DNA from: Antitrichia curtipendula
Lineage: Eukaryota > Streptophyta > Bryopsida > Hypnales > Leucodontaceae
Length of the DNA stretch: 64,000 bases
Assembly (NCBI GenBank): GCA_951230915.1
Contig: OX579634.1
Coordinates: 12,240,725-12,304,724, forward strand
Direction of reading: 5' to 3'
Shown: positions 23,801 to 46,300 of the stretch, piece by piece
How positions within the stretch are numbered: position 1 is the first letter of the stretch
How the letters are laid out: every line of letters starts with the position of its first letter
Notes under the pieces: model-generated
The model's database searches: none
Seen by the model: the letters and a program-made list of their open reading frames with translations, nothing else
What the model was told of the DNA's origin: nothing
Position numbers and translations under genes: made by a program

Positions 23801-24653
23801 GTGTCCCATGTACAAACTTCGTTGCACTAAAAACAACACACAACAAAGTGAATTGCATTATGTTTTTTTCCTCACTTTGACATGCATCTTCTACAATACA
23901 CAATGGTTTCAGACAACCTCGGCCAATAGACATGCATTCCTGTACCGAAAGCCTCCTCGCTTTGCCATCCAATTTATCGCCAAACAAATACGTTCATGCA
24001 ACAAATCATATCATTCAAAAGACACATAGTACTGACCTCAAACTTTAAAGGGTTCATACAATAAAAAATTCATCTCTTACTTCAAGTTCCACGTGTTCCA
24101 CATGAGTACCTCCAACTACTACATTCTGAAAATTTACAGCAGACTACACAAATCATGAATGCAAGGACCAATGTTCATTCTGCAATTCGTACTTCTGCAC
24201 AATATCCCTTTGAACATTGCAGGTGCAGCTGCACTGTCCTGTGACGCTACATGCATCGACTTCTGTGTGCATGAGAATGACTATGCTTCAATACTATTGC
24301 ATGTACGCTTAAAATTCAGTTAAGTTCTAAACTTCACTTAATACACCGTCAACATTAATACTGAACCTCATTTCATACCTTAATCTAATGGAGACACCAA
24401 CTGATTTTAGTGTCATTTCAATGCTACACAATTAATAATTGATGTGAAGGAATTCATTTCATATGACTGATGCTAGCAATTTCAAAGAACTGAACTACCT
24501 ATACACTTTGATTTAGCGTAAGTTTCACGTGCTTGCATGCATGTCTATGGCTACTGCTATTTTAAAATGGGACACTGAAAATCATTTCGGAAGAACTTCG
24601 GTTGTCCACTATCCCTTCCATAGTCATCTACAGCCTTCCACTTCGAATGACTG
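20844..24653. other. AT-rich non-coding filler of the CACTA element
   Basis: No convincing exon on either strand. The plus strand is strikingly rich in ACTTC/CTTC and poor in GAAGT. Open frames of up to ~100 codons occur but have no protein-like composition or splice context. Confidence 0.5.
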
Positions 24654-24662
24654 CATCAGATT

Positions 24663-24725
24663 CAATGATGCTAGCAAACGAGCTTGGAGCGGTGAGCTTG
24701 TGAGCTGTGAGCGTGGATCTCGTGA
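24663..24725 (+). repeat. MULE left terminal inverted repeat
   Basis: Begins CAATGATGCTAGC, then GAGCTTGGAGCGGTGAGC, followed by extra GTGAGC units (TGTGAGCTGTGAGCG). It pairs with 43307-43350 over about 35 bases with few mismatches. The repeated GTGAGC/GAGCTTGGAG units look like transposase binding sites. Confidence 0.85.
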
Positions 24726-24878
24726 GCTTGGAGCCCCCAAACTTAAAAAAATTGAAAATTCGAACTCCCAAATTGGTTTTTCCGATTTTGTTGGGAGAAA
24801 AGAGGGAAAATGTCAATTTTTTGACCTATTACCGTGTACCCTATAATCGTGGATTGTGTGAAATTTTATTTTTGATTG

Positions 24879-25185
24879 GGAGGCAATTCCATCACTCACC
24901 ATATTTATTTTCCTAGAAGTTGTGAAAGCCAAGCCGCACTGATGAACAGAAATTCATCGACAAAATTTAATGGGGGCCCAATTCCATCACTCATCGATTT
25001 TTTTTAAATATTTTGGGTAAAAGCAAGGCACCATCGGTGAGTAGAAATTAATCTACAAATTTCAATGGGGGGCAACTCCGTCACTCAACATATTTTTTTT
25101 TCCTATAGGTTGTGAAAGCCAATCACTACCAGCGAACAAAAATTCATTCACAAATGGTAATGGGGAGGCAACTCCATCACTCACA
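24879..25185 (+). repeat. ~95-bp subterminal tandem repeat of the MULE
   Basis: A unit beginning GGGAGGCAATTCCATCACTC recurs at about 24879, 24968, 25065 and 25159, with shared inner segments GTTGTGAAAGCCAA and AGAAATTCATC. That gives three full units and part of a fourth, diverged from one another. Confidence 0.8.
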
Positions 25186-25736
25186 ATTTTTTGTGCCCAA
25201 ATACGAAGTTGTCTGAATACAAAATACACATGACGTAATTCGTCTTGAACAAAATGCTAGAGGACCATTGGGAATATAATATGCCACACAATTACGGCCA
25301 AGGTCTATTCTCCAAACAGTCCTCCCGCAATGATTGTTCATTGAACGTAACTACTTATATAGTGACTCATTCCCAAATGCCAATCGTTATGGGACAACTG
25401 AAGATTTAAAAGTGACCTCTGAACATGTGTTGTGGGACACTTGAATAGGAACCTGGACATTGGTCTTGTTGCTCTTCCCCATTTTCAGCTCTCATCAGTA
25501 TTGTACGCTCATGTATTAGCAAAGGCCGCCTTGTATTTGGGTGTGTAGTATTACAGTAAAATATAAGGTTGGAACTCATGCATATGCATTTTAATTATCC
25601 ACACGTATTCTTACATATGAGACATGCTCCTCTATTTTCTGAAACCAATAACTTCTTCTATGCCATGTACTTCATATCATTTCAAGGTATGAGGGCCATT
25701 ACAATACTTTGCACTACATAAAAAAAGTAGCCATGC
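25186..25736. other. MULE non-coding segment after the transposase stop
   Basis: AT-rich sequence with no clear exon on the minus strand. If the donor overlapping the transposase stop (GTAAGC at 25740-25735) were used, a further 3' exon would lie here, but I see no strong candidate. Confidence 0.4.
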
Positions 25737-28700
25737 TTACTCTGGCAATATGATAATCCTTGCCCGCACTAGGAGTATCTTCAATTCATTGTAGCTATAA
25801 CTAGGTGCATGAATGAATTTGTCTTCATGGAGGTCCATCTTGCAGAAGTACCTATACAAGTAGTACAAGTGCTTACAATTCACGTATTGTTGGCGACCTC
25901 CAACAGCGGACACAACCATATTCACAAAGTCCGGACATGTGCATGTAGGAAACATACCAATAGTAATTCGGTATATATGGCTGTTGGAGTCCACCCCACT
26001 CTCGAGTACCACTATTGCTCCAAGGCCTGGAAAAGGGAGAAGGGTCACTCCTAAAATTTGGCCTCTAACATTCCGAGCACTCTCCCACTTGTTCCGTTGC
26101 TCTACAGTAGGGGCATTTGTAGCTCTCCTAATGGTCCGGTTGTTCCTCACTATTGGATATGCATCCGGATTTGGTGGAGATGCTTGGTCAAACAAAACAG
26201 GTTCAAAAATATTAGACATGGAGAAGAGCTGACGTGGCGACAATGTAGGCCGTTCTTGGAGGCGGAAGCCTGCATGCTCCAGCAACAATGTCTCTTCTCG
26301 ATCCAAGTTGGTTCCAGCCAACACTTGCCAAATTTTCGGCACCTCAGGCCAATCTATGACCCACTTACGCTTTGTACCTTGCACACATCGTTCAATATCA
26401 TCCCAACAAAACCAAAAATCGGCCACCACCTCACGCTTACTCCCGTACTCTTCTTTTCTACCACGGTAGGTGGGAGCTGGAGTTCCCTTTCTTCCTTTTG
26501 CAATTTTTGCGGTACACTTGATCTTTGACATTCGTTGCTGAGCTTGGCATCTTGCATTTGATTTGTGACTTATCCTTGCAATGTGCCACTTTGATGTGTC
26601 GCAGTCACTTTCAAATGCGATTGGCACATACTGGTGTGGAGTGACCTCGCTGTGTGATTGGTTGACTTCCAATGGCTCCGTGAAAACCTTGGTTGACCTT
26701 GTTCGAACTCGAGGTTGAGAAAAGTTGACCTTGTGGGGGCGATGTGAATCTCCGGCATCACCAATAGGTATGTCCAACTTTCTCTTCGTGCTTCCAAATA
26801 TTTCTTCTCCTTCCAAATGCGGTACTCGAGTTCCTACACCATGTGCTTCCGGCAATGTGTTCAATGCCTCCGCAATTTTTTTTGGGCATCCGCTGCGTCT
26901 GGCAGCTCTCAACTTCAATTCTCCCTTGGATGGTCCTGAACCAGAAGTGTGACCTCTCAAATATGCACGGTAGTTTGTCATTTGCATCCAAGCACGAATA
27001 CTATCATCACAAGTGGCGTCAAACAAATTGTTTGCACGTTTACCGGACATTTGAAGCCACTTGTTATGAACCGTTTCGGACAGATTACAAAAAGGTAAAT
27101 CTGTCATCTCTTCCAAACTCAAGCCCTAAAAATCCAACCGAAGCAATTAGAAACTATTCTAAGCATACATGAAACATTTGTATGAGAAAAATGAATTCTA
27201 AAAATTCACACTGTACAACTACGATACCTTGTAAGGAATATTGAAAATGTGAATTCTTAATTTAGGACCTTTCAAATTCCTTGCAACTAATGAATACCCA
27301 AAATAGGAGTAGTACCAGACAACACATGAACATCCATCGGATCCGACGGATGTTTAAGTATTGCTTGGTACTACTCCCATTTTTTAAATTTATCAATAAA
27401 TCAAAGAAATTTACTTGTCAAAATTTCACGTATGTTGTCATGTACAGAAACCCAAAAAAACAAAAGCCATTGAAATTTTTTTCTGGTACAAAGTATAACT
27501 CTATTTTGCAACACTTTGTAATAAATAAAAAATGAAGCTAGAAACAAAAAATCTTAATTGAGCTTACCATGGTCATGAAGCCTCCCCATTGTAAATATCG
27601 AAAATGCCAAAATGCCAACCAGTGGTCTAGGTGATGAAGTGCTTCTTCGGCTGCAGCTCCAGACGAAAGCCACCATGAACGAATTGCAAGGTACCGACTC
27701 TCTGCTTCATCCACGGTCTTTGATTCTTTATATTGCTTGCATAACATAATGTGTTGTTGTTGAAATGCATGCTTGATGTGCTTCTGTGTGTGTTTTATAA
27801 GAGAAGTACTCCAGTGTAGCAAACACGTCCTTTCACGGTTCTCCATTACTTCATCAGGTCTGCCACTACCGTACACAATACGAACTGCGTTCCAATTGGC
27901 CATGGCGCTATCTGCCATAAATCCCTTGAAGTTCGGATCAACCAATCCATGTCGTGCCATGACCAAATTCAAACTCTTCCAAAATTGTACTTGGACTTCG
28001 GTATCTTCAGATTGCATGTCACACATGGCAATGGTCATCACTTTTTTGTACTGTGAATCATACACGTCGCAAGCCATTGTGGTCCAGTCCTTCACGCGCT
28101 TTACGTAGTCAAACATCATCCACGTGTTTTGCAGATCACCACCTGGTTGCATACGCCTTATCAAGTCCACTCCACTTCCAGGTCCTTCAGTGAGCATTTT
28201 GAAAATGTACACCTTCTCTTTGCCTTGGCCTGGGAAGACGCTATCATGTATAAATTCGAACTTTGATTCTTTCTTCATGGTCATAATGTTGTCAATGACT
28301 CCTCCTCGGTTGTTTGAGCGAAAAGAAGAGATGACGTTTCATATACTTGGACTGCTCAGAAACTGGAAGCGGTCCATGACCTCTTCCATTTCTTCTCCCT
28401 TCAACATTTCCTTCTCTCCTTCTCCGTGATGAAATAGGTGATTTTGTAGAAAATCTTTGCTAGCAGATAGCGCAATGGCAGAGTTGGTGGCTGTGGGGGT
28501 TCTAGACACCTGCTCTGCAATGAGATCACTAATTTCTTTTGCGGAGTCCCTATACAAGCCCATAGCTACCGGATGAATATGATTACCGAGGTGAATAGCA
28601 GCCCTACTCATCTTTGCATCATCGCTGTAGCAATAGTAAATTCTAGCGCCGCATGAGCTCACGCACGTAGGTATTGTTTTGCAAACCTTACAAACTAGCC

Positions 28701-29727
28701 TACAATCTTTAGGAGGACCCTCTCCTATTGCAAAAGGAAAAACTATAGAACCGCTCCACTCTGTCTCATTCTTTCTGGAAGCCCTCTTCATATACTCACA
28801 CTCAGTATTTTCACAAACAAGATGACCAGCGCAGTATGACTTACGGAACTTTAAGTTGTCGGAGTTGTGGATGTTTGTTGTCACCAACTTGCACCAAGGA
28901 TGTCCGTCGTATCGCTTGTCCATTCCTTCCAAGTTCTTTGCACAAGATGAATAAGATTGTGGTCCACACGGAGGTAATTCGAAGATGGTGTCCCCATTGT
29001 ATGTAGGAGGCAAAAACTTCACTTCATGGTGTTCCACAGTGTCAAAGTCCATTGTAGACAACTCACTCCTAGAATGGTGAAGCTTAGAAAGTCTCCTCAA
29101 GCACTTCATTATACTGGGTTGGTGGAAAGGCCTTGGGTGCAATGGAGGACGGGACAACACAGAGCGCACATGACTACTAGATGGGGTATTGGATTCAGAG
29201 TTCCCATTTCCCTTCTCCTCTAAAGCATTGTTAATTGTAAGGGGGTTCAGTTGAAGGGTTAAGGGTGGAGAGTCTTCTTCTGAATCGCTAGCCAACTCTA
29301 TGATAGAATCCAAGTTCTCTATCTTCGGTATAACAGGAATTGGACTTCTAGGAAATATTGAGAGACGTTCACGACACGGACCTTCTGTAGTTGCCTCTCT
29401 CATGAGTGGGATATCCACTGTTGAATTCACTGATTGCCGACTTCCTATCTCAAGAGAAGAGGGTACCATTGATAGTGAGATACCATAAACTCTATAATTC
29501 CCAGACGCTAGGTACCAACAGAAGCCCTCATCACACATGGACTTTAGTATAGGAACTGATTGTTGCAATTCACCTAACTCAGACCTTCTTTCTTCCTCTA
29601 CATAGATAGTCGATTCAACAAATTTGAATCTCACATGAAGCAAATGATTCAGTACTTTAGCTCGCCCTCCTTCATCAAGTGGAAACACTAAGGGTGCCTC
29701 CTAACCATCTACACATATGCAGGCCAT
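25737..29727 (-). pseudogene. MULE-type transposase, two exons, two in-frame stops
   Basis: Exon 1 is 29727-27568 and exon 2 is 27125-25737. The intron has GTAAGC and TTTTTAG ends and is in phase 0, giving about 1,182 residues. The ATG at 29727 is the first in frame. Domains: an acidic 'IIELASDSEED' motif near residue 142; a C/H zinc-binding region at about 299-386 ending 'HLGNHIHPV', like WRKY/GCM1-type fingers of MULE transposases; an RNase H-like core at about 545-680 with 'WTTMACDVYD', 'MCDMQSED', 'FKGFMADSAMANWNAVR' and 'RTCLLHW'; and a SWIM finger at about 1115-1139 ('CTCPDF'...'NCKH'). It would cut and paste the element by binding the TIRs. Two stops break it: TAG at 29703-29701 (codon 9) and TGA at 28341-28339 (codon 463). 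Both lie in otherwise clean frame, so this is a recently inactivated copy. Confidence 0.85.
27306..27378. repeat. Foldback with GATCC-centred palindromic core, copy 1
   Basis: GGAGTAGTACCA and its inverse TGGTACTACTCC enclose the palindromic core CATCCATCGGATCCGACGGA (27331-27350). It lies in the intron of the transposase. It is one of four related sequences in the MULE. Confidence 0.7.
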
Positions 29728-32061
29728 GTTTCTATCAATAGACAAGTAGATGCTGAAATCCAAAAGAGTCACACTGTATATGAAGGATACACAGGTTACT
29801 TGGCTGTCTCCATGTTTTATAGTGATCCATGCCATTCCCCATTATGGACAAAGGCGCCAAAGGTAAATTTGATTATAATTTTTACTTTCATCATTAATGA
29901 CGGTAGATGCCATCCTTTTGATGTTTTTCAAGTTCATAAGCGCCAGCATTTACTAAATATTTTGGAAAGGGACAACTGCTACAATACGGTCTCATCATCA
30001 TTGTAGTGCATTTAGGTATGAAGTGAAGGAATCACTGCAGATAGATTTGATTTAAGATATGTCCTAAATTTCTTTTTGAGATATTTATCCTCTTCTGATT
30101 ATATGACACACAATCCACGCTTGTACCATGGCATGTGCAGAATTTCACATTTACCAAAAAAGTACTGTCAGAATTGATGTTGCTCTTCTTAACTGTCATA
30201 GATGTTGACGGCACCATCAAGCGTCGTGATGCGGCACGCTTTGCAACAATAACAAGCCAAAATGGCAGCCTATGCTATAGCACAACTTGTGTGAAGTTAT
30301 GGAGGCCAACGTCCATTTTCAAAGAGTACTTATAGTCTTTTTGAGGAGGAGGGATTCATTTGTACATCATCTTTTTGGTGTGTTAGTGCTTGCTCTTTGA
30401 GGAAGTTCTCATTATCCTTTCTCTTAGCACATGCTCATAGAAGACCGGGGAGATTTGTTTAGCTTGCCATTGCAGGGTAGAAAGAGGAAGAGGCGATCTT
30501 CATTCTATTTTTCTTCTTCTAGAGCATTGAGTAGAGCTAGAATGAATCGATCCAAGAGAGCTATGTCAAAGTCCGGAAATTCTGGAGCTGGCGAGTTTCG
30601 GAAGACTCTTCACTTCGAGGTGGGAGAAAGTGGGGATGCAATGGGTGTTGCAGGCGAGGAGGTTGGTGGAGAAGGGGAAGAGTCTCAGCAAAATTTCACG
30701 TATGACGAAGTTTCAGCTCATCACGTCAGCACTAATGTACGATAATATCTATTCTCTCTATTCTCAAGAGCTTGTTGTTTTTATCCAGTGCTCATTACAC
30801 AAGCGCCATATGTTTGAATGCGATATTCCTTGAGGCCAGACATTAGTTTAATCATGTATTGCTATTATACATACAAGCACAAAAAGGACACCAAATTGCA
30901 TATGTTTTAGGATACAAATATATAGGGCCCTTTATAGTTTGCCAACTTGGAACTGCAGTAGTTGTGAGTACTCAAATGAAATTCTAAGAAGAAAGTGAAG
31001 CTATGTTCAAGTATTGATGTTGTGATCTGAGTAGAGTCTAATGACAAGGGATCAAGAATGTTTTCAATGTCTCTACAGTGAACGTTGTTGTGCTTGAGGA
31101 CAAGTGCATGCATCACATTACAAGCTGTGCTTTAACCATGACTCCCCAAATCAAATAATGAACCGTATTTAGAATAAATTAATGATTATCCTTTCTTTTT
31201 GGTGAAATGGTAGAGATTGATTTATAGATTGACACTTCGTACTGAGCACTATAAAATAATGAGTGGATGGTCTCTGGTAGATGCAAAATGATAAACAAAT
31301 TAGTTGCTTTGCAGGATTTTTGAAAAGATGGATATCTTTGACTTCATTGTCATTTTTTTTTTCCGGAAACTAGCATTCAATCAGTCTAGGCTTCAATATT
31401 ACTCTTCATACATATTGTACCTTCACTTTGGTGGCTTCAAATTTGGAAGTTAGTATTCCAAATTCTTGGACCACAACAGAATACATCTCACTATCCACAA
31501 AGAACAACATATAAGTAGTTCTAGATTTAAGTCGACTTCTTTGTTGCTGAGAAGCTATGAGAGCGTGCGCGCCACGTCACGCATCTGGCAAGTTCACCGA
31601 GACATTCGGGCAGCTAAAGTTGATACGTTTAGGCAGTAAGGGAACGACCATTCATGAACCACAAATCACGCAAGTAAGTGAGGCCACTAAACCGCAACTG
31701 GACTCTTAAGCACAGTTGGTGTAAATTACAGAAGGTAACTCCGATTCAAGAATAGAAAGATGAATCTCTTTTGAACATGATTGCGTTCCTTAGATAATAT
31801 TTGCATAGATGAGGAATTGAAGATTCGTGGAAAAAATATCCATGCAATCGGGTCTGCATTCAATTCGCCGCCCAAAGATTCCGCTGTCACGGAGGCAAGT
31901 CAGCCGAGCCGAAAGCTCCATCGATCACAGCCTGTGACTCAAACTACGTGTGGTTGAGGAAACACTGAACTTCGATACTAAATCGGCCACCATCAGTCCC
32001 ATATCCATCCATTCTTGCATATCGACTGAATCTCTGAGGGACTGCGCAGGAATAGGGAGCG
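29728..32061. promoter_or_regulatory. Shared intergenic region between transposase and cargo gene
   Basis: The two MULE genes diverge from here, so promoters for both should lie within it. An open frame at 30431-30745 starts with ATG, has a basic cluster (GRKRKRRSS) and the segment 'MNRSKRAMSKSGNSG', which resembles the start of the cargo protein. It may be an alternative or older first exon (low confidence). I see no unequivocal TATA box. Most of 30.8-31.5 kb holds nothing recognisable. Confidence 0.4.
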
Positions 32062-32640
32062 ATGAGGAGGAGTATGCGGAGCCGATCCAAGCAGGGCAAC
32101 TTTGGAAATGAAGTTGGGAGCCACTCGGAGCCAGCTGACGCAACAAAGGTATGTGCTTCATTTTGATCTCGTTTTGTGCATGACCGCGAGCATGACCGCG
32201 AGGGTTGTGTCACCTGCACTTGGACCTGCCGTGTGAGTCTGTCTCAGACGTATTTACATATCAAAAGTGACAGACGTAGGATTCGATTCAATGGTACAAA
32301 ATTTTGCGAGTGATGATTGACTTGAGAACGAAATTGCTCGTCGAATGCCTCGGGCTGCAAGGACCCTGGCTTTCTGGTCGCTTGAAGCTAGAATTTCGTG
32401 AGAACGAGGTTGCACACATTAGGAGTTTCACGCATCTGTCAAGCTTTGTGTTATGAGTGCCATGTTCGTGCTGCGCGCTCCGCTCCCCGCCTGGTCTGCC
32501 GTCACGCGTGGCGCGTCCACAACGAGGCTCTCGGCCGGTGAGTGTCGCGCGTCAGGTGAGAAGCTGGGGTCTTTCATGGCGCGCGAATGGTGCGACACTG
32601 GGGTTGACGTTTCTCGGGTTCGTGTGTGGCATTTGAACAT
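31555..32640. promoter_or_regulatory. CpG-rich block around the cargo-gene start
   Basis: In an AT-rich element this kilobase is unusually rich in CG (for example GTGCGCGCCACGTCACGC at about 31565 and GCTGCGCGCTCCGCTCC at about 32470). It surrounds the proposed first exon at 32062. A second short ATG frame at 32462-32540 (MFVLRAPLPAW..., Arg/Ala/Ser/Thr-rich, no acidic residues) ends exactly at a GTGAGT donor and could be an alternative first exon. Confidence 0.4.
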
Positions 32641-35600
32641 GATTGCAACGCTGTTGTCGTTGTCTAGGGGGTGCTTTCTTCAAATTCATACCGAACCTAT
32701 CATTCAAAATGTCAAGTTGGGATGTCAACGGTCCCCTTTTCTGGGGTTGTAGCAGGTAGCTGAGTGACAGGCGTCGGATCCGACGCTACTATTTCAAGTG
32801 GCTGCTACTACCCCACCAACTGGAACTTTAAACAAATTTGGTGACGATCTGTTTCGTTTCCGACCGCAACTGGCGTCTCAATATGTCTTTGACAAAGAAG
32901 ATTCCTCCGAGGTTCGAGCTCAAATGAGTATAGGTTTTATTTTCTTCATAAGTTGAATCGCCTCTGACTTCCATTCGGTTTTTGAATCATGTCCCTAGTT
33001 AGTTCTGCTCGCTTCTGCAACCTGTCGATCCTAGTCCCAAGCATATTTCATTTCACAGATTGAAATATAGTTTTCGGTGATGATCGAGATTCTGGTGTAG
33101 CTTTATTCACTTCTCCGGTACTTGACGAGGATCAAGGAGTCTCATATGGTCAGTACTTGCTGTCGGATTCTTGGAAGCAGTTCTCGTGGATCTCGATTTC
33201 TGGGGTACCAGTAAGAAGCCACCGAATGGGCGTCGAATCCGACGCAGTCTTAGCTGGTGGCATGCGGTACCCACGGAACTGGCAACTTCAGCGGTTCTTT
33301 CCCAAAAATTTAGCACTTGATCGGTTATAGGATAGTCAAAGGACGAATTTACATGTCCAGCTCCGCGAGGGCACGGTGAAGCCATGATTTCCAAGATAGT
33401 GAGACCAAATATATTTGATATATTTGCAAAGTTTCTGGTTTAGGTGTTTACATATCTGATTCCAAATTCTATACAATGCAGGCAAATGATGCATCTCTGC
33501 GAATTGCCATGGAATCTCAGAGAGAAGGTGAACAGGTAACTCACGAAATCAGCAAAGTCTTAGGCAATGGTATGTTGTGATATTTTCAAATTTAGATAAA
33601 ATATTGTTACATAATTTAACGGTGGGATTACTTACTTTTTCCATAAGCAAATGGTTTCGTATATTCTTCATTCACGTTCTAGAGAATTCGAAATTGGTCA
33701 CTCACAAGGACCCGTTTCTGGGGTAGCTCTAGATACCTAAGAAAGGTCCTTCGGATCCGACGAGTACTTTGGGGATCCCAAAATCACCTGAGATAAAGGG
33801 TTTCCCAGCCCTTCAGATAGGTGCGCCTTCAAAGACCAAGAAGTGGCCTCAACCAGGCGTGGACCTCTCAAGCGACTCAAGTGATGAAGAGGACACATTG
33901 GTGAGTTTTGCAGACATCATGGATGCCGCTGAGCGAGCGGCAGATGCTTTTGAGGGCGACTGTGTTAGTCAGACACGTGAGCCTGTCCCTTGGTGGTTGT
34001 CACCAGAGAGCTCTAATACAGAATTTTCTTCTGCTATTGAGCTCTCTAACTCTCCGTGTAGTCCTCAGTTTGAGGGTGGATGTGAGTCTATGTGTGAGTG
34101 CCCGCTTAATGGTAGGGTTTATTCTGACGAGGTTATCATCCTTAGCTCAGATTCAGATGAGGACAATGAAGTGGACGTGGTAGGATAGGATATGTCTTGG
34201 TAGTGATCTTCTTGAGCAGCATGTTATTAGAATGCCCCATGAAGGCAATCATTTTCTCAATCATGTATGCAGTTATCTACCTATCTATCATTAAAGATTC
34301 GTATTTTTTTGGCATAAGCATAGCACTGTGAATTTCGACTCAAGTGAATGCTTTACATCATTCGTCTCACATGTTTATGATCATGATTTCTAAATTTATC
34401 ATACATAAATTTGTATATGCAGATGGACATATCGCCGGTCAAAGAAACACAAGAAGAAACTCTTAGAGAGACTCCTGGAACGGATGATACTATGCAGCCA
34501 GAGATTGAAGAGGGGGACGAAGGAGAAGAAGGCAAGTTCATGCAGGAGGATAGTGTTGAAGACGAGGAAGAAAAGGGCTTGCTGGAAGACGATCTGCGGC
34601 GTATTCACAAAGGAGATTCGGTGGAAACGCTCCGTGGCTTGCGGATGAAGCCTGAAGAACTCTTTCGCCTACACATTCCATTGTGTAGGCTTGTAGCCAT
34701 GCCCATGGTCCGGCCTACACTCTCTTGCGACATCAAAAAGTTAGAGCAAGAATTTGCTGGAGGATATCGTGATGGAGCAGCGGTGTTCTACGTTTCAACG
34801 TCAAATGAGCAAGGAGAAAGCTCAGAATTTACGGAGGCTGAGATGAGCGAGTGGGATGCACTCTGGAAAGAAAATAATGAAGTCTTCACTAAGTATGTGG
34901 AGTCCAGACCCAAGCTCAAGTTCATGAAGAACTTGAAGTTCTACATATGCGATGGAAACCACCGTCGAATTGCTTGGATGAACCTGATTGGCAGGTGCTA
35001 CGCACTGGATCCAACATGGCATTGTGCCATCAATTGTATAGTGTTGGACACCAAAGGTCGGATTGAAGTTGTCATGCAAGTGATGCATGACATCAACAAG
35101 TGAGTTATCTTTGTATTTTTTGTTTTATTTTTAATTTTGATTTATTATATATCTTTAGAAGATTAAGGCAAAAATTATTTATTTGAATACTGGTTTCATT
35201 TCAGATCGGTTGAAGACTCCCATGTCAAGACTAACTTGGTACACACTCTGTATCAAGTTCAAAAGTATGGACTTCTGCCAATTCAGAGATTTGCTGATCT
35301 GCTTAGGCTGTCAGAGAGAAAGAGATGTCTTGAAAACACTGTTTCCAAGAAATGGTACTCCATACCAGTGCAGGTCTTCACATCATTTCTTTTTCGGGTA
35401 AGATATTTTGTTTCACATGAAAGTTCACATTCCTTGTCTTCTCATGCTTTTGAATCTTATGAGGTGATTACCTAAAATTGGGGTGCTTCTGTAGCAAGAC
35501 ATTTCTCAAGCCGCAGATGCTGCTGTGCGGAAGTATATCGAGGTCACGCCTGAAAGTGAGAGGAAGGCAGAAGATTTGGCGCTTGCCATGAAGGCTGGAG

Positions 35601-38600
35601 CAAAAGAGAGAACTAAACATTTGAGTGTGAAGATGGGCAAACTGTTGGCGGTGGCGAATCCTGCAAATGGGCCTGGATTTCTAGAACAAGTGAGTAAAGT
35701 TTCTCAAAATTGAGTGATTTACATTTTCCACATGTTATGTTTAGTTGGAAATTGATCTTCTATTGGTGTAGGTGGAGAGGCATTGGAGCACGAATGAGGT
35801 TCCCGAAATGACCTTGGAGAAGTTGCAGATGGTAGCCACATGCAACATGACAGCCGCACACAAGATCAAGATTCTGAAGTGGTGGAACTCCTCTGCTCCA
35901 TCTCGTGAAGCGAGGAAGTTCCCACAGAAGCCTCTTTCCGAAAACTACCTTTCTCCTTTTCTTGCCAAATGCGTTTGGTATGCAGACGTAAGTGAGCAAT
36001 ATTTTTTATGTTCATGTAATTGAATTTGTTGATGGTTCGTATTGAATGTTCGATTCATGACTTTGGAAAAAACTTTGTCATATCCGAAATTATGGAATTT
36101 CATAGTCTGTCATTTTTTTTAGATCAAAGATGCAGCTGTGGAGTACTTCGATTCAGTGGTGAGGCAAGACAACATCAACATCAATTACAATGTACCGCAG
36201 CAGCCACAGTATTTGCCAGAGTACATTGAAGGATGGAGGTAGAAAATATGGGATCATGGCTTCATGACGTACTTCAAGGGACAAAACTATTTCAAGAAGG
36301 GAGAGTCTTTTGTGGCTCACGAAGGTTCAGGCTCCGCAGTTCGTAGAGTTCTCTTCCGGTAAGTACATTGAACTTATTTCTATAAAATGTAGTTCGCTAT
36401 CAAGTACTAATGTAATTTGTCTTTCATCACTTCGAATAAGAACTTAAAATTGTTGCTATGGTTCTACACACTTGTGTTTGTGAAATAATTTGTGAGAGAC
36501 AAAGTGAGGGTATAAACCTTGTTCAACCTTACTTGGATTGTCCTTCTAATATTTTAGTTAGTCTTTTATTGTCCTCGTAATATTTTTCTTATAGAGAACT
36601 GTAATTGTGTTGCAGTTATTTCAAATTAGAGCTTGAAGCCAAAGGGGCCATTTCTCGCTTGGACCTTCCTCCATTCATATCGTCATTTCTTGACCGCACC
36701 TCAACGGCTTGTATGTTCAGTCCGCATCAGCTACGAACCTGCACCACAGCTCATCTCAGCAGTGGAGGATGGTATTTGGACTGTACAATGGCCTTCACTC
36801 CTCCTTCAGAAGTAGAATTGAGGAGATCTTTGGATGGCAAAGGTGCTGTTGATTTGGACATTGACGAGTTTGCCGGCCTGGATGATAAAGCAAGAACAAA
36901 GGCCATTAGGAAGAGAGATGCTCATGACAAAAAGAAAGAAGCACGAGCGCAAGTGAAACTGGAAACCTCGGAAAAGAGGGAGGCTGAGCGAGCAGCAAAG
37001 AAGGCGGAGAAAGAGAAGGATGATAAAGCCAAGGGCAAGGGTAAGAAGAAGGACGAAGCACCATCTCTCATAGTGGATTATGATTTGGAAATTGTCAGCG
37101 GAGGGAAGCGGAAGGCCACTCTATCGCAGCTCACGGAAGATGTCATTACTCACGTGACCCAAGCGATGGTCTTCACAGAGGATGATGTGGTGAAGACCGA
37201 GGATTTAATCCTCAACGTCTCGATTGAAGACCTTGTGGTCGACATGGAGGAGAAGAAGCCGACTTCGTACAAAGACGTCCTTGTCTTTTTGAAAAAGGTG
37301 ACCATCTTTCTCTTCATAGTAATAAATGATTTATTTTTTTGGAGTGACATTATCATTGTTTGTATTCATTCTCTCAATTTTAATGCATGACATGTTTGTA
37401 GTCTATGTCAGCTGGAAAAGCTCGCAAGTTCGAAGGGGTGACAAACGCTAAGCCAGGGGTGGACGTCATTTTTATTGATTGCCCAGAGAACTTGCCCGTG
37501 CCAGGGGTCTCTTCTCCAGCAAACGAAGTGCCGGAATGGAATGCAGACGAAGATGCTGAGGCCCTCCAATCAGCATGCAGCTTTGCCGCCGAGCATCTAC
37601 AAGACGACGAATGCATCATAGTGTTTCACTCGTACAGCATCAAAGCGAAGGAGGACATTGCTGGAGTGTGTGAGACATACCAGATGGTGAAGAAGAAGGA
37701 GTGGATGGGAATGAACCGTATGCACTTGACCTCGGCTGTAGGCAAAACAAAGACGGTAACTTTCATTCAGATTTTTTGGGGCTTTCATGAGCAATTCACT
37801 TTGTGCTCTACTAACATTCAATGCATTCTAATATCCATTTTGCTTGGCTCCTGCAGACACAAAAGTTTGGAATCACCCTCCTTGTCAAGGACCTTGGCGC
37901 CAAAGGGAATTCCAAATTCTCTTTCAAGCGCACTGTGAGCGCTTATTTACCCACCCTTGGTAAATAAGTAAACACAACCAGGTTCTTAGTATTTCGAGAA
38001 ATTCTAACCTATGGGTGTCCTAACGTCGGTCCATTGTGCCTTCCAAGCAATGGATCTTTTTTCTAAGTCCCTAAATACCAACAATTGCAATCAAACTCAA
38101 AAAGAATGCAACAATTACAATTTCTACCAAAACTACTTCAATCAAAGAGGCCACGGTGATTTTTGAACGCAACTAGCTACAGTCTAAATTTAGCAATCCT
38201 AAGTTGTAGAGAATCTCATGCCATTTCTAAAAACATAAAATTCATCCCTATCCCCTTCTCCTAGCAAAAGATATCAACGGATGAAGTTTTAGCCTTTCCG
38301 GGGCAAATTAAACTTCATCCATGACTTTGGACTTGTTCCCTATTTCAATTAATCGTTAAATTTAAACCCTAGTTTGATATAGTGAAACTCTAACTAAATT
38401 CTAAGTTTAGTCTTAATTGGACTAATCTAAGTTGACTTCATCCGTTTCCTGGTCCAAATTTCATCCTTCTATTTCTTCTAGGTAACTTGGTATTTCTCAA
38501 AGCTTGAACTACGATTGGAACACTTGAAGTTGTCACTCTAACATTCTAATGCTAACTTTCTTCCTTAATCGCGTTTGGACACCCTAATTCTATCCCCCCT

Positions 38601-41600
38601 TGCTCTTTGAAGCTTGGAATGGATTCTGGTCAGTTGCTATTTTTAGTACTTTGAAATTTGTTCCTCAAAGAGGCTAATTCAAGCTTTCCAAAATGGTCTC
38701 TAACTTGATTTTAAACTTATCCTAGCAAAAGTTATTGATGGATGAAGTTTGACCGCTAATCGGTTCCTCAAAATTCATCCGTTGATTACTACTAATCCTA
38801 CTTTTGAATTTTACTTTTAATTCCACTCCTATGATTCAGATTACTTCTACTTGCTAATTTTCTAATTAACTTTCACTTGGACACTTCTAAATATTTTTCA
38901 TCCGATTTTTACTCTAAACTTCATCCAAAGCTAACTCCTTCGTTTTAGATCGAAATTCTAAGTTTAAGGTGTTTTCGGAGAGCTCTAATCATAATCTACC
39001 AACTTTGACAGATAAACTTGGGAAAAATCCTAATTTAGACTCTCTGAATCGACCTTGAAGTTCCGGCTAAGTATTTAGTTGCTAATCTAAACAATTCCAA
39101 AAGAAAGGTAAAAGTTAGTAAGTTACCCCAAGTTGAGCTTCATCCGCCGTGTTGTAGATGAGCTCATCCAAATATTCTTGGTCCGCCATGGTTGAGAGTG
39201 CTTTTGTATTTTTGCTCACCGCTTAAAGTTTGGGTTCTAATACAAATTTTCCTATTCTTTCCTTTTCTTTCTAACTCTCCTTCTTCCTTTTCTTTCTACA
39301 CTATTCTTACTCAATTATTTAGTTATCCCAAAGGTTGACTAGTTGGAATAAATAATTGACTCTTGACTCCTAAATAATAATTGACTCCTATCTTCTTCTA
39401 AGTCAATTATTATTTTATCCAAAAACTAATGGTCCAAATTGACTCTTCAAGATTTCTTAGCAATTCTCCCTAATCCTAATCTCCCTTCATCCTTCTAACT
39501 CCCCATTCTCAACTCATTCTACAATTGTGGTTCTCAAGAGCTTGAAGTGTACTATGAGAGTTTTAAGTGGTTTTTCCTTCTATGATGTTTTTTGGGCTCT
39601 TCTTTGGTGATGGAAACGTTGCTAATTGAGACTTTTCTCTTCCTATTTCTATAATCTCTAATGGTTTCTTCTCCCTTTTGACTTCTTACAAGTTCCTATC
39701 CAATTTTGAATTCGAATTGCAACTTCAATCTTAGCTTGAAAAGATTGAAATTGGCATCAAATTCCTAATTTGGTTTTGGGAGAAGGTATTCCCAAAATTC
39801 TGACTTCCCTATGAGAACTCGAACCTGTCCAGGCAGCTCAAAACCTGGAGCACCGCCCCTCCAGTCGGAAGCCCTCAATCGCAAGCCAGCATCGGGACCT
39901 CAGTCGGAAGCCCAGTCGCGAGCCCCTCTCCCGTACCCCCGGTCAATTGCTGCCACGTGGCGAGGCGTCACTGGTCCAGTCCCGGTGGCTGGCCAGAGGC
40001 GCTGACTGGACAGGGCCGGTGACCGGACAGGGCCGGTTTTGGTCAGGCTCTTGTCCTGGTCAGGCTCTCGTTCTGTCAGGCTCTTGTTCTGGTCAGGCTC
40101 TTGTTCTGGTCAGGCTCTCGTCATGGTCAGGCTTCCGATTACTCACAACTGGTGGGATTTAACTACCCACAGGTTTGGTGATGGTTTTCCCCCTAACTCT
40201 TACAAAATACTTTGAAGATGATTTCTAAGACTTGACAAGCTCAAGCTTCACTTAAAATTCTAGTCCTTCCAACAACTAGTGGTCTCTTTAAAACATCCTA
40301 AGTCAAAGCTTCGCCGTCGTTCTAAAAATCACTAAAAATCACACAAGCTAGGACCAAGGGGGTCCAAAGCTTCGCCGTATTTCAAAAATCACAAAAAAAT
40401 ATTCCACAACTAAGACCAAGGAGGTACAAAGCTTCGCCGTACAAGGGCAATATATAAAAAAACAATAAGTGTTAGTTTAACGAGGATACTCCTACTACGT
40501 GTGTTAGTGGAGGTTAGTACTTCAAGACTTCTAAACACAAGTTAGTAATGCTCAAATCTACCCAAGAACTTAGAATTAGAGCACTAGAGGTTCCCCCAAG
40601 CGGCAAGCCGGGCATAAAGAGGTTTCCCTAGGATTAGTACAAGGACTTCAAAAAAATTCAACAAAACACAAGTAGTACAAAAGCACAAGAAAACCAAGGC
40701 AATCTTTGAAGGGACCCCAATGTCCTTCAAAGAGAGCTTGAGAAAGAGTGACAATGGAGCTAAAAAATGCTCCAAAAACACAAGAATTTGGCAACGTGGC
40801 CTAAAATGGCCAAAATCCAACTAAATGGACCCAAAACTTGAAAAGAGGTTCAAAATGAACCTAAAGGGGTGAAATGAGAGGAAAATGAGAGCCCTTATAT
40901 AGTTTTCCAAGGCCCTCACCCCCCTCTCTTTTCCTACATGGTAATCTTATCAATTAAGATTTTCATCCTAATCTTCTAGATTTTCACTTTCTACGCTGGA
41001 TTTAAACTCTAACTTTTGGAGGTTTACTCCAAATCACAAACGGATTGCGCCATTGGCTTCAGAAGGCCATTTTTAGTCCAAGGATCCCCCTACCCCCTAT
41101 TTTGACGCTAAAAACTCAACAAAACTTAGCGCTAACTGAACACCAAATTAAGGTAAAAACCCAGTTTTTGGAGTTTGACCTTTCTGAGAAAAGTAACTAG
41201 CCTAAGTTCTCTAAAAGGTATAAGGGAGTAAGAAAAGACCCAATTTTGACCTCATTCCGATTCCGTATGCTCCCGGGACGCCGGTCAACTTTCCCGCATT
41301 CTTTAAATTTGTCAATTTCCGGGGAATCTTGCCGGTTCGGGTACTTCTGACTATCAGAATGTCTTGAAACTTGTTGGGGCATCTTATTAACATAAAAGAT
41401 GCTATTCTAATTTTTAGTGAGATTTTACCGCAACCTGGGTGATTTCCAAGAATTTCCCATCGTAGGTTTTGGCGGTTGACCGTCCGGAAAGACATTTTCT
41501 GCAAGTTAGAAAATTCCGAAACTTTTTATGGAACCTCTCATGGAATTCCACAAAGGATGTGCAAGCTAACATTCTTACTTTGCACAAGGGTCGGAGGAGA

Positions 41601-43012
41601 ACCAAATCTTGACTTCTCCTTCAAAATCCGGCCACCAGGGAATCTTCTTTGTCGGGGGGAATCTTGGCAAACCGATTTCGCCGTTGATCTCCAAATGCGA
41701 TTTCCACCCCAAAATGACATGCGGCATCCTCCGATTCCTCCCAGGCGTCGGTCATGAGGTTGTAACTCCTGCAGGCTAACAATTCGGGGTTTCTGCTATT
41801 TCGTCGGTAAAATGGGGAAAGTGAAACCTATCGTCGGGAATGGATTATCTGACCTCAACGGTGTTCCTTCGGACCAAATCTAGCCCTAAGAGGTTACCTA
41901 GCCCTCGGTTTGGCAGTTTAAGCCCTATTTACCAAAAACCCGTTTTAATCACTCGGAATCCCGATTTTAGTCTATTTACAATGGGAATTGGGTTTAGTTT
42001 GAGGGGATTATAGATATAAGTGACCAAATGCTATATGGGTATGTGCCACACCTATTTTGGTCTTACACTCTTTTTAGGTCTTTTTACGTTTAAACTACAC
42101 TCAAAATCATAATAATTAACAAAAAGAAAAGCGTGAGTCCCGAGTGACGAATCGGGGGCTCACACGCACTAACACCATGATCAAGGCTGGTGTTGACATA
42201 GCATGTGATGACATGTTGATGAACTATACCCATCCGGATGACATGGCGATGAATGGAGAAAAGCCATGGCGAGGCGGGCGCGAAAAAGATCCAAGGTTTT
42301 TTACAATCCTCCTTGAAGCAACAAGCATCGAAGGAGATCTGATATTGGATTGCACTGCATCTACAGGTGAATGCTCAATTCAATTATGTTACATTTTAAT
42401 TGTAATCTTCAAATCTAATCAAGGAACTAAGGTATTTCAATTTTTTGGCCTGTAGGTGCATGCATTTCAGCTTGTCGTGGCACCGGTCGCCACATTGTGG
42501 CCTTGGAGGGGAATAGGGACATTTATAACGCAATCTTGAAACCGATGAGGAAGTCAACAGGGACTGTGGTGGCAGCATCAATGTCGGTGTCGATGGAGGT
42601 GGTTTTAGAAGATCCGGATGATATGCCCGTGGTGCCTCGTAAATTCGCTCGCAAGGGGAAATTTAGTAAGTAAGTTGGCACTTTTTAAAATCTTCCATAA
42701 CATGGTGACTCACATTTCAAAACCCTAACATTATTTTGTTCATTTTGCAGGGATCGACGATTGATGGCAGCAGGTGCTATTATGCCAAAACCAAGTCTTC
42801 TCATTAGTCCGGAGAAGCCTTTTGACCTTCCGGTCTATGCCGAGCAAATGGCAAGTGCCTTCGCGGAGTTTGGTTGCTCCAAAGCAAAACGCCGTAAAGA
42901 CACATATGCTCTAAACGTTTTGCAGTACATAGATGGATCTGCATCCGAGGGTAGAGAGTCCTCAGAATCATCTACGAGTTCCGAATCTGCACCTGAGTTC
43001 ATAGCAAATTAG
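32062..43012 (+). CDS. ParB-domain / DNA methyltransferase-like fusion protein (MULE cargo), interrupted
   Basis: Thirteen exons: 32062-32148, 33482-33535, 33733-34179, 34423-35099, 35205-35397, 35495-35689, 35772-35987, 36123-36358, 36616-37297, 37402-37755, 37857-42366 (with an LTR-like element inside), 42456-42669, 42752-43012 (the next exon's G at 42751 completes the split codon). Splice sites are mostly canonical and phases agree at every junction, giving about 1,296 residues. Order: basic start; Ser/Asp-rich acidic region with a SUMO-binding-like motif (about 175-195); ParB/sulfiredoxin-like domain (about 277-422, DGNHRR at 373-378); K/E-rich coiled coil (about 760-830); methylase-like domain with a motif-IV-like 'FIDCPE' (about 953-958) and motif I 'LDCTASTG' followed by 'GRHIVALE' (about 1132-1155). 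Likely a nuclear DNA modifier. A TAG at 36240-36242 (codon 663) and the nested insertion make this copy non-functional. The first three exons are less certain than the rest. Confidence 0.8.
32740..32815. repeat. Foldback with GATCC-centred palindromic core, copy 2
   Basis: GGGGTTGTAGCAGGTAGC (32743-32760) pairs with GTGGCTGCTACTACCCC around the perfect palindrome GCGTCGGATCCGACGC (32771-32786). It lies in the first intron of the cargo gene and is preceded by TTCTGGGG, as in copies 3 and 4. Confidence 0.75.
33200..33273. repeat. Foldback with GATCC-type palindromic core, copy 3
   Basis: TTCTGGGGTACC pairs with GGTACCC, and CCACC with GGTGG, around CGTCGAATCCGACG (33231-33244, one central mismatch). 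It also lies in the first intron of the cargo gene. Confidence 0.7.
33716..33780. repeat. GATCC-centred palindromic core, copy 4 (degenerate)
   Basis: Starts TTCTGGGGTAGCTCTAG and holds the core TTCGGATCCGACGA (33750-33763). The outer arms are weak. The splice acceptor of the third exon of the cargo gene falls inside it, so part is translated in the proposed model. Confidence 0.55.
34663..35099 (+). other. ParB/sulfiredoxin-like domain segment
   Basis: Within the fourth exon of the cargo gene. The pattern is that of ParB N-terminal domains: 'LHIPLCRLVAMPMVRPTL' (the position-and-RP motif), a helix 'KKLEQEFAGGYRDG', a strand 'LKFYICDGNHRRIAWMNLIG' (equivalent to the GERRxxA/DGxHR nucleotide-binding loop, DNA about 34951-34968) and a closing 'VVMQVMHDIN'. 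Known ParB-fold proteins bind or hydrolyse CTP/ATP and clamp on DNA at palindromic sites. Enzymatic activity here is not shown. Confidence 0.7.
37402..37755 (+). other. Methyltransferase motif-IV-like exon
   Basis: The tenth exon of the cargo gene holds 'GVDVIFIDCPENLP' (core at about 37465-37500), placed where group-beta DNA N4/N6 methylases have their D/S/N-PP-Y/W catalytic motif, then 'DECIIVFHSYSI' as the following strand. Here the tetrad reads DCPE, so one proline and the aromatic residue are lost. It is either a divergent catalytic site or an inactive one. Confidence 0.5.
40003..40135 (+). repeat. Short tandem repeats in copy D
   Basis: Two GGACAGGGCCGGT units are followed by six units of GGTCAGGCTCTTGTTCT (about 17-19 bp) with small variations. 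This is the GC-rich block of the LTR-like family. Confidence 0.85.
40308..40445 (+). repeat. CAAAGCTTCGCCGT direct repeats in copy D
   Basis: Three units about 60 bp apart, each with GTC/GTCC/GTACAAAGCTTCGCCGT followed by AAAAATCACAAAA-type spacers (about 40308, 40368 and 40428). The same motif is repeated at the same place in copies B and C, so it is a feature of the family. Confidence 0.8.
42170..43012 (+). other. Methyltransferase motif I exons (SAM-binding)
   Basis: The last part of the cargo gene. 'GDLILDCTAST' (42350-42366) joins across an intron to 'GACISACRGTGRHIVALEGNRDIY' (from 42456), matching the C-terminal motif of N4/N6 DNA methylases ('vLDpFaGSGtt..A....gR..igiE....y'). Motif I lying after motif IV is the group-beta order. 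The final exon is Ser/Glu-rich and ends with TAG at 43010. Confidence 0.65.
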
Positions 43013-43306
43013 ATTCATGAGGTTGATAAATCTCTTGGGTCCCACTATTGTCTATTTCATTTCTATTATGATTGGATTTGTGTGTTTTATGGCTACATCT
43101 CGGATATTTTTCATTTCCTATTTTTTTTAATTGCTTCACTTTATTTACAGCCCTCATATTTCACTATTGTTGCCTAGAAAGAAATGTCAATAAATACAAA
43201 TAGGCACGTAACATCCAAACAAAAACCTTATATTTTTCACATTGCACTACGTATGTCATCCACGGTCATAGGTCCTTTACACTAATTTTTCAAATTAATT
43301 TTTTCC

Positions 43307-43350
43307 CGCTCACCGGCTCACCGCTCCAAGCTCGCCTGCTAGCAACCCTG
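43307..43350 (-). repeat. MULE right terminal inverted repeat
   Basis: Read on the minus strand it starts CAGGGTTGCTAGCAGGCGAG, then CTTGGAGCGGTGAGCCGGTGAGC, matching the left end with a few changes at the extreme tip. It is followed by the target duplication CATCAGATT at 43351-43359. Confidence 0.85.
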
Positions 43351-43359
43351 CATCAGATT

Positions 43360-46300
43360 TGACTGTACATTATTTAATTCATAAACAGTTCAACTACAAA
43401 GAGTGTGGGTCATACTTCGAGTTCTCTCTCCACAACTCCATGGTGATCTTGTACAAAAAAATCTTGCTTACCTCCTCCGACATGCTAGAATTAAAAATAA
43501 CGTAGTCCCCAGTACCACCCTAGCAATGTCACCGACTGGAAGCTTCCTTTCCAAGTGTCCACGTACTGCATATTCAAAATAAAAAGATATTAAACAATGG
43601 AGATCCACGAACTCTCTAAGAAACTTACTCACCAAATTCTTGAACAAACACTGAAACTTGCTCTCCCTAAATGTATGCTACTTTCATTACTTGCACTAAT
43701 TGTTGGAGAACAGAATTTACACAAAACACTAATTACAGTGTACTCTATGATGGCCACAGTGCGACTGCAAGGCAATCCTTCTCAATTTAAAAACGTCAAT
43801 CTTCAAAGCACATACAATGTTCGCGGTTTTGGAAAATCTGTTAATTGGGACATGCGATGCAGTTCCATGCAAAAAAAAGTGAAAAAAAAGGGTAGTTTCT
43901 TTACAAAGGGTATCATTAGGGTTCAAAGTTTTCATAGTACTGAACTAAAAAGGCAACAACAATTATGTCTTGAACTCAATGACCGAAACCTTAATTTCTA
44001 TGAACAACGATACGCATTAGTAGGCATTAAACGTCCAAGGAAGTACCATTTCCGGCAGACAGTTATAAATTCAAACAATTTAAAGTTCTGGTACAGGGAG
44101 TACGAAAAGTTGCCTCCCAGTCCCTGCAGTTACATTCCAAAACGGTTCTGCAACAGACAACAAAGCATCATTTCTGTAGAACTCTAAATTCAAAATTGCA
44201 CAATTGAAATAAAAACGAAGATGCACATGTGGCGGACAAAAACTTTCTTGATGCCGCACTCACGAAATATTGTTTTCCAGCTTTGGCCGAACGCCTCGGA
44301 AACACTTACACTCCAAGCTTCAGGACACTGTCACAACAAGAAAACTTAAACTTAATAAACGCGAGCACAAAGATTCTTCCTCCCAAAACACGCAACCAGA
44401 TAAACATAAAGAAACACATGCACCATGAAGTTATCTAATCACATTACATTAACTGAGGACTCTTAAAACCATACTATACAGAGAGTGTCATCTATATTTC
44501 CTGTAAGACATACGAGTGACCACCTTAAGGAGGAGACGTTGTTCATAATAATGGACACAATTTCAGTTTCTACATTAACGCTCCTGAAACACTCGAGCTA
44601 ATTACACTATAAATTGTGCTGCTCCACACGACAGGATAACAATGAACAAAACTACATAGTAACCTCATTTGTATACTCTTACACATTTTCAAATGCAGGG
44701 GTAGTGCTGTTCCTCAAAACTGGTAAGATTGTACCACAAATCAGATTTTTCTTGAGTTGTCTACAATGCCAGAAATAAAAAAATCATGTCCGCCCATGTC
44801 GTGAATTATGTAAAAAGACACTCTGAAATTATCGTAGCAGCTGACATTCTAAACACACAGCTCTTCTTACCGTGTCCAAAATTTCATTTTTGCAACCGCA
44901 AGCACAGTCCCCAAAATTGAAGTAACAAAGAGGATTACACCTTCATCGAATCATACTAATAGGGGACCAAGTCACGTCCACACTTACCGACGCAAAAGTT
45001 CAGGCAGTCCCAACAGCCCTGCAAGAAGAGTGACATACCTACAATTGACATGGAGTGATCTGCAGCCACATAATAAAATTCATCGTTATTGTTAAGTCTA
45101 TTTTAACTGCAAATACACTCTGCATGCATGTTGCCTGCTTTTGAATATAGTCCTTGCACATAGGGAAGATTTGAGGCATCTCACAATTCTTCGAGGTTGG
45201 TCAATGCACGCATACCACTGAAATAAAACAAATCAGAGCTTACACGCGTAACAGAACCCGCTCTCTCGTTTTTTGAATCACTTATACGTTACTTTAATTC
45301 TACTGCAGCTTTGCATGGCTTAAAACAGCGCAAAAGGGCAGGCAGATTTCGATGTGATAATATGCATGACCTTCAAAAATCTAAGATAAGAACACAGGTC
45401 AATTCACAGACGGCATGCTCATTCTCTTGACTTTCACAATAACTTCCTTCAAAGTTTGCAGTTTTTGTGGATTACAGGAGAAACCATCTTCCTATCACAA
45501 CTCATTAGCAAACCTGAACGTCGCAAAAAAAAACATAACCACAATGCAACAGAGACGAATACAGTTGCACCTGCCTCTGTTTGCTTTAGTGCTATGCTGA
45601 TGGATTTTTTTAACACATGCAATCAATTCAACTTAACTGTATCACGTGAGCAAACTGTCCAATCCTAGAACATGTATACTTTTCAGCGGCTCACTGACAA
45701 TTACGAACCCACATACCCGAGGATACTCATCTGACGAATGCAGTAGCGCTCTCCTCGAATGTCTTCTCCACTGTCGTCAACCTATTCTGAAGCCACTTCG
45801 GATTTCGTTGTTGGCACTAGTTTGGCCAAACAACCCTAGACTTTCATAATTGATTTAATGTACTTTGCAATGCTGGAGACCAATTCATGTGCACAATATG
45901 ACGTCAAAATGAACACAGCTGAACTAATGTCACTGAGAAGCATAATCCTACAGTCCCAGACCACCCGGATTGTAGAGGAGTACTTCTTCAATCGAATTCC
46001 ACGTATACATCATTGTCCTCTGCATATCAAAATTTTGAAAAGAAGGTCCATTATTACGTACCTCCCAAAGCGTTTCTACGCGAGGCACAGCAGCCATGCC
46101 TTACAAGAACTACCCGTCCTACACTTCTGTTTAGCAGCGACCAAGAACAACAACACCAGGCACACATACATTTCAATTGTATCACAACGATGCAATTAGG
46201 CCTCTGCTATAACAATTCAATTCACTAAAACGTGCACCTCCCGGTCATGTTAAACAAAAGCACTGAAATAAACATTGACTCCTCTTCTCTTGCAAATTAA

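Follow-up and report, generated by a model that had tools for sequence, protein, structure and literature searches.

Does a plant transposon with a gene that resembles prokaryotic DNA methylases use it to write marks on DNA, or rather to bind DNA? This question is raised by a stretch of 64,000 nucleotides from Antitrichia curtipendula (Bryopsida; assembly GCA_951230915.1, contig OX579634.1, positions 12,240,725 to 12,304,724 of the forward strand), which we call the window and from whose first letter all coordinates are counted. In it lies a large transposon with two genes, one for a transposase and an accessory one whose predicted product joins a probable ParB-like segment to an N4/N6-type DNA methylase fold. 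In our opinion this is a probably dead copy of a large cut-and-paste, MULE-like transposon, and the accessory protein would serve to bind the element rather than to methylate it. We give this reading, taken as a whole, a probability of about 0.5.

The gene and its transposon

The multi-exon coding gene on the + strand is real. Our model, rebuilt from open segments and splice sites, has eight exons between 34423 and 37933, followed by three more pieces between 42170 and 43012; it encodes about 1,100 residues in total, and the exon at 34423 starts with ATG. Phases agree across the whole gene (34423-43012), and AG acceptors and GT donors stand at every internal border bar the two edges of the insertion described below. 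Six exons are jointly free of stops, for which the chance by base composition is 5e-20; this figure is uncorrected for the choice of frames and borders, and neither the exon with an in-frame TAG nor the last four pieces enter into it. The initial annotation of this DNA saw here a 13-exon gene with consistent splice phases. Indeed the gene has many exons and the phases do agree, but the number does not hold: the largest intron is an insertion, and two tiny exons (32062-32148 and 33482-33535) are unsupported, having splice dinucleotides only. Another open frame, further upstream, is possibly an alternative 5' exon of this gene (Table 1).

There is one in-frame stop in each of the transposon's two genes. 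The TAG in the ParB/methylase-like gene went unmentioned in the initial annotation. An in-frame GT donor at 36239, just ahead of it, means that it could in principle be spliced out; the 39 codons after the TAG, however, have a coding appearance and a good donor at their end. We regard the gene as probably damaged and this copy of the transposon as probably dead.

The largest gap in the gene is not an original intron. It is a later insertion, since it has TG...CA ends and the 5-bp target duplication CGCAC on either side, and its site lies within an exon. By the coordinates, the reading frame continues over the site (77 exon bases before it, the T at 42170 after it). Since no repeat family shown links its two ends (20 of the 21 direct-repeat families were shown), the insertion resembles a solo long terminal repeat. 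Splicing from a GT at 37935 to the first AG past the insertion, at 42184, would remove it in frame. The insertion is thus not necessarily fatal to the gene, and this GT and AG may be what had been read as an intron. Two repeats lie within the insertion as well, one a tandem array of 17-bp units at 40036-40133 and the other of 62 bp at 40304-40441.

That the gene is transposon cargo, as had been proposed, follows from inverted repeats, edged by a 12-bp direct repeat, which bracket it together with a divergent transposase gene on the - strand; the two genes stand head to head. The terminal inverted arms are 82% complementary, and in the best 45-nt window 37/45 positions match, while none of 100 shuffles gives more than 26. 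As for the direct repeat, just 3 of 20,000 random pairs of 40-nt pieces from the window have 12 nt or more in common. Because this repeat overlaps the reported arms, the exact end of the transposon is unsure.

The initial annotation further specified the vehicle as a eukaryotic MULE. That the gene is cargo of a transposon stands, while the MULE label is reasonable and not proven; we consider the element probably MULE-like. The open codons of its transposase number 453 and 266, split by one TGA, and then 462 with a SWIM-like CxC...CxH, for which the Pfam SWIM match has E=0.22, below the cut-off. The identification as a transposase rests on this match and on position. Scanning viral contigs with it returned no relatives. 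According to the available portion of PMC6446971, SWIM fingers and additional open reading frames (ORFs) are described for MULEs, their target-site duplications measure 8-11 bp, and terminal inverted repeats with lengths such as 42-46 and 45 bp are on record. The element here also has terminal inverted repeats, which are short, whereas its direct repeat is of 12 bp with an unsure exact boundary. Between two of the transposase segments we observed an 84-bp near-palindrome (27300-27383; two 42-nt arms, 83% complementary, no spacer), which looks like a small nested hairpin element.

The methylase half and its changed motifs

We regard it as secure, on the strength of profile comparison, that the C-terminal half is homologous to the beta-class N4/N6 DNA methylases. 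With hhalign, a profile of phage methylases (A1, five of six fetched loci, L005 being left out) aligns over 203 columns with motif IV before motif I, which is the beta-class order; the score is 64.5, whereas none of 60 shuffles exceeds 20.4 and the reversed sequence reaches 13.5. In PHROGs, phrog_498 (DNA methyltransferase) matches at E=1.3e-4 and covers both motif regions, and five more methyltransferase families match at E 0.002-0.07. A type II methylase of PADLOC matches the motif-I part at E=1.9e-5. Comparison by tblastn of the methylase part with 50,697 phage records returned 199 of them at E up to 10; a methylase or methyltransferase is annotated in 26 of the 30 listed, among which the best E is 3e-3. 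NCBIfam CcrM (E=0.0078) and Pfam N6_N4_Mtase (E=0.014) stay below their cut-offs. Thus the N4/N6-type methylase fold that had been proposed for the C-terminus is confirmed by PHROG, PADLOC and hhalign. In the suggested check by profile hidden Markov models N6_N4_Mtase stayed below the cut-off, and for ParB there was no Pfam match at all. PADLOC also returned Cas3fv (E 0.008), a weak and unrelated match that we rejected.

In N4C and N6A methyltransferases motif IV reads (D/N/S)PP(Y/F/W) and motif I reads FxGxG, and in the N4/N6 family motif IV is required for catalysis. Neither motif has the form of an active methyltransferase here. In the hhalign alignment DCPE faces DPPY at motif IV (VIFIDCPENLPV here for MVITDPPYNISV), and at motif I DCTASTGAC faces DPFMGSGST, so that FxGxG has become TxSxG. 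A DGNHRR-containing segment, a motif-IV-like site and a clear S-adenosylmethionine (SAM) motif I had been claimed for this protein. All three segments are there, but motif I can hardly be called clear. With DCPE in the place of DPPY and no FxGxG, catalysis by the methylase half is doubtful, and the loss of the same residues weakens the idea that the element carried its own DNA-marking protein.

For comparison, a genome scan with the motif-I segment gave 161 pattern matches and 14 loci. We read 13 of these loci as bacterial methylases of the usual sort and take the remaining one for noise. By our own reading of the ORFs, FxGS(G/S) is present in 13 of these 14 bacterial loci and DPPY or DPPF in 12; in the two others one ORF is truncated before motif IV as read and one is a non-methylase. 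We made no use of the motif-IV count from a ParB-methylase scan (79 of 80 with DPPY or DLPY, one with DPPF), because its patterns demanded that motif or HPT[QE]KP. By the genetic code, turning DPPY into DCPE requires a minimum of four base changes, spread over two codons, from which we infer that the change was probably fixed before this copy decayed.

The probable ParB-like segment

A ParB-like segment at the N-terminal side is plausible. ParB is its best PHROG family, with weak matches of E=0.065 and 0.027, and by eye the order IPLCRL...FYICDGNHRRIA...INCIV resembles that of phage ParBs. A ParB-methylase fusion of about 540 residues on a phage-like contig (L041, IMGVR_UViG_3300046799_000032) has IDGNHR and DPPF; BLASTP of this fusion against the segment gives a weak match over 66 residues (E=0.083 for the single comparison). 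The fusion resembles ours in its IDGNHR and in the order ParB (probable here) then methylase, but it is much shorter and its motif IV is canonical. A scan with the fusion's own sequence found itself alone.

Other comparisons brought no ParB. Besides the missing Pfam match, tblastn with the segment returned 12 phage records, none annotated as ParB, and one plasmid record without ParB, and the scan of viral contigs with it gave no relatives. In a comparison with a profile of P1/SopB-type ParBs (six of the seven fetched aligned, L026 being cut and left out) just 22 columns align, with a probability of 0.2. A single-sequence AlphaFold2 model of the segment was too poor to be used (mean pLDDT, the predicted local distance difference test, 38.9). 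An insertion of about 50 residues ahead of the DGNHRR box may explain why the ParB tests fail. The claim of a ParB/sulfiredoxin-like segment thus stands as far as the DGNHRR box and plausibility go, without a Pfam match or separation from shuffled sequences. The tests lend the ParB fold no firm support; we take the segment as probably ParB-like.

Possible roles of the protein

The accessory protein would consist of a segment for DNA binding, probably ParB-like, followed by a middle region and then by an N4/N6-methylase fold. It would bind short repeated sites near the element's ends, candidates for which are the GTGAGC cluster and the 95-bp tandem repeat. Two reversed GTGAGC copies occur at the right end too, at 43308 and 43316; the 95-bp repeat is present at the left end only (within 24600-43400). 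Once bound, the protein might shield the element from silencing or aid its transposase, in the manner of VANC proteins and VANDAL elements, and a methylase fold could still read DNA without its catalytic residues. Since those of motif IV and motif I are both changed, binding seems the more likely role in this lineage than methyl transfer. Element-specific DNA binding is, in our opinion, the best supported guess. A nicking role is possible as well, since the ParB domain of a Bacillus cereus ParB-methylase, Bce_0392, is described in the available portion of PMC5512222 as having a nonspecific nicking activity.

A number of results weigh against our reading. No Pfam transposase family matches the transposase ORFs at E up to 10. 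Searches among the sequences of solved structures bring no methylase, one giving no match and another two unrelated chains (E 0.69 and 1.3), and no ParB, the ParB segment finding one unrelated chain at E 0.65. A profile of ten other ParBs (one from a phage-like contig, four from phage records, five from plasmids; the nine fetched were chosen among 50 listed, 28 and 61 records having matched) scores 18.1 with the segment, and 2 of 60 shuffles score higher. In gap-tolerant alignment, run with three gap settings, the score of the real segment is equalled or exceeded by 318, 541 and 536 of 1000 shuffles, and in two of the three settings the reversed segment outscores it. When five ParB blocks, with boundaries set by hand on the ParB profile, are required in order, 864 of 20,000 shuffles reach the score (about 0.04); without the DGxHR block this becomes 6719, with that block alone 2366, and with a three-block subset picked after looking 394. 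In the same test the methylase piece, at 44.5, scores nearly as high as the ParB segment with its 48.7. Finally, a large protein database yielded no relatives for the whole read-through protein at E up to 1 (a query of 1,100 letters including two X; the 7,999 candidates with the most shared words were scored), nor for residues 65-340 or residues 745-990 at E up to 10.

Other explanations must be weighed too. The failed profile tests and the ParB-free tblastn result are what one expects if the resemblance to ParB arose by chance and the methylase-fold protein has an unrelated N-terminal domain. On the contrary, the best PHROG family is ParB, the order IPLxRL ... DGNHRR ... CIV resembles phage ParBs by eye, the phage-like fusion reads IDGNHR and gives its weak match, and the literature has a protein in which these two domains are fused (PMC12477816, in the portion available). 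A chance resemblance to ParB is in our view a tentative possibility with some claim to attention. We are somewhat more sceptical about N4C or N6A methyltransferase activity on DNA, present or past, by which the protein would mark the transposon that encodes it, and we hold this unlikely. Indeed the methylase fold spans both motif regions, and self-modification was likewise suggested for Ectocarpus (PMC12477816, same portion). However, this copy has lost both DPPY and FxGxG, the bacterial loci found by motif I mostly keep DPP[YF], and the number of base changes behind DCPE would favour fixation before decay.

Two further explanations concern the gene rather than the biochemistry. It could be passive cargo, captured from the host or from a bacterium in the style of Pack-MULEs and with no role for the element. 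MULEs do tend towards acquiring fragments of host genes (PMC6446971, available portion), and this copy does carry a TAG and an insertion; yet what we find is a long gene of many exons rather than a short fragment, and a protein of like description is encoded antisense to the transposase in a Sola1 element (PMC12477816, available portion), for which reasons we consider mere capture quite improbable. Alternatively, the gene could be part of another element that has inserted into the transposon. Nesting does occur here, as the insertion within the same gene shows, but some 335 bp separate the end of the gene from the right end of the transposon, and no second bracketing pair of inverted repeats with arms of at least 30 nt exists within 20000-50000; to us this is the least credible of all. 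We return to a probably dead MULE-like transposon with a protein that would bind the element.

Relation to known systems

The initial annotation presented the gene as the best candidate for an undescribed system. This is not supported, as an accessory ParB-like/DNA-methylase protein is encoded by the Sola1-1_Ec32 transposon of the brown alga Ectocarpus (PMC12477816), a paper which, in the portion available, also cites a 2011 paper and Petroll et al. 2025 for similar proteins in transposons. That protein and the present one have in common a length of about 1,100 residues and a ParB-like part (probable here) together with an N4/N6-type methylase, and in both cases the accessory gene lies opposite in strand to the transposase in a giant DNA transposon, of 21.5 kb in Sola1-1_Ec32. 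The difference is in the vehicle, a Sola1 transposon there and a SWIM-type, MULE-like transposase here; the comparison was made by description, not by sequence. A ParB-like/methylase transposon gene is therefore of a kind already described, together with the same idea of self-modification. Novelty may lie in the vehicle, probably MULE-like, and in the degenerate state of the methylase motifs. Among the papers listed in our searches of the open literature we saw none that describes such a gene from a MULE or from land plants.

For binding without methylation the closest parallel is VANC of the VANDAL MULEs, which binds short tandem-repeat motifs of its own element and removes silencing (PMC5735166). 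Such binding by a MULE accessory protein is just what we propose here. The available portion of that paper makes no mention of a methylase fold or of ParB, and anti-silencing was tested for VANC, while here it is our inference. Bce_0392 likewise has ParB and methylase in one protein, again as compared by description (PMC5512222). Eukaryotic retrotransposons that carry 5-methylcytosine methyltransferases are also known (PMC5890265, portion available). The likeness consists in a transposon-borne DNA-methylase gene, but those enzymes are of the C5 cytosine type and sit in retrotransposons, whereas ours is of the N4/N6 type and in a DNA transposon.

Features of the locus

Table 1. Coordinates of the transposon, its repeats and its two genes in the window
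Feature	Position	Strand	Remarks
Whole transposon between terminal repeats	24663-43347		about 18.7 kb including a later 4.2-kb insertion; exact ends unsure
Direct repeat, left copy	24651-24662		12 bp, CTGCATCAGATT; like a target-site duplication
Direct repeat, right copy	43348-43359		12 bp, CTGCATCAGATT
Terminal inverted repeat, left	24655-24705	+	51-nt arm; outer 8 nt overlap the direct repeat
Terminal inverted repeat, right	43308-43358	-	
Four GTGAGC repeats, left end	24692-24727	+	candidate protein-binding sites
Subterminal 95-bp tandem repeat	24877-25192		3.3 diverged copies; Tandem Repeats Finder
Transposase gene region	25740-29700	-	segments 29700-28342, 28338-27541, 27125-25740
Extra open frame of 151 codons	33733-34188	+	acidic towards its end; a splice from GT at 34180 to 34423 would be in frame
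Exon, acidic N-terminus and ParB/Srx-like segment	34423-35099	+	DGNHRR at 34951-34968; weak PHROG ParB-like matches
Exons, ParB end and middle region	35205-35397, 35495-35689, 35772-35987	+	no PHROG match for the middle region
Exon with in-frame stop	36123-36358	+	TAG at 36240-36242
Exon, lysine/glutamate-rich linker	36616-37297	+	
Methylase exon	37402-37755	+	DCPE in motif-IV position, 37477-37488 (hhalign alignment)
Methylase exon broken by the insertion	37857-37933	+	final 5 bases are the CGCAC duplication
Insertion, solo-LTR-like	37934-42164		4,231 bp, TGTGAGC...GCTCACA; CGCAC at 37929-37933 and 42165-42169
Interrupted exon resumes	42170-42366	+	motif I begins
Methylase exon	42456-42669	+	remainder of motif I
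Last exon, acidic/serine-rich C-terminus	42751-43012	+	ends in stop

Three predicted proteins of the window have a hydrophobic stretch followed by serines and acidic residues, at 34129-34164 (+), 29307-29272 (-) and 56698-56660 (-), with the sequences EVIILSSDSDED, SIIELASDSEED and KVIVVLDSDTDDD. Of the three, one belongs to the N-terminus of the transposase and another to the ORF that precedes the ParB/methylase exons; we take them to resemble SUMO-interacting motifs. Elsewhere, 17646-19559 (+) holds two long open frames (438 and 185 aa) that are GC-richer and purine-skewed, and 52603-54445 (-) holds arginine/serine-rich open frames; in both regions no Pfam match rises above the cut-off.

Implications of the hypothesis

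The accessory genes reported from giant transposons of algae would have here a probable new vehicle, SWIM-type and MULE-like. This points to repeated uptake of one and the same prokaryote-derived protein by transposon superfamilies that are unrelated to each other. The altered motifs also raise a question which the published idea of self-modification does not answer, namely whether such proteins write marks or only bind. One may go further and suppose that MULE-like transposons outside algae carry a whole branch of the family in which a non-catalytic "pseudo-methylase" reads the element's ends and either shields them from silencing or recruits the transposase. We think that such a branch is rather unlikely. 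If it did exist, the pseudo-methylase would be a second, independent anti-silencing system of the VANC kind, built of prokaryotic parts.

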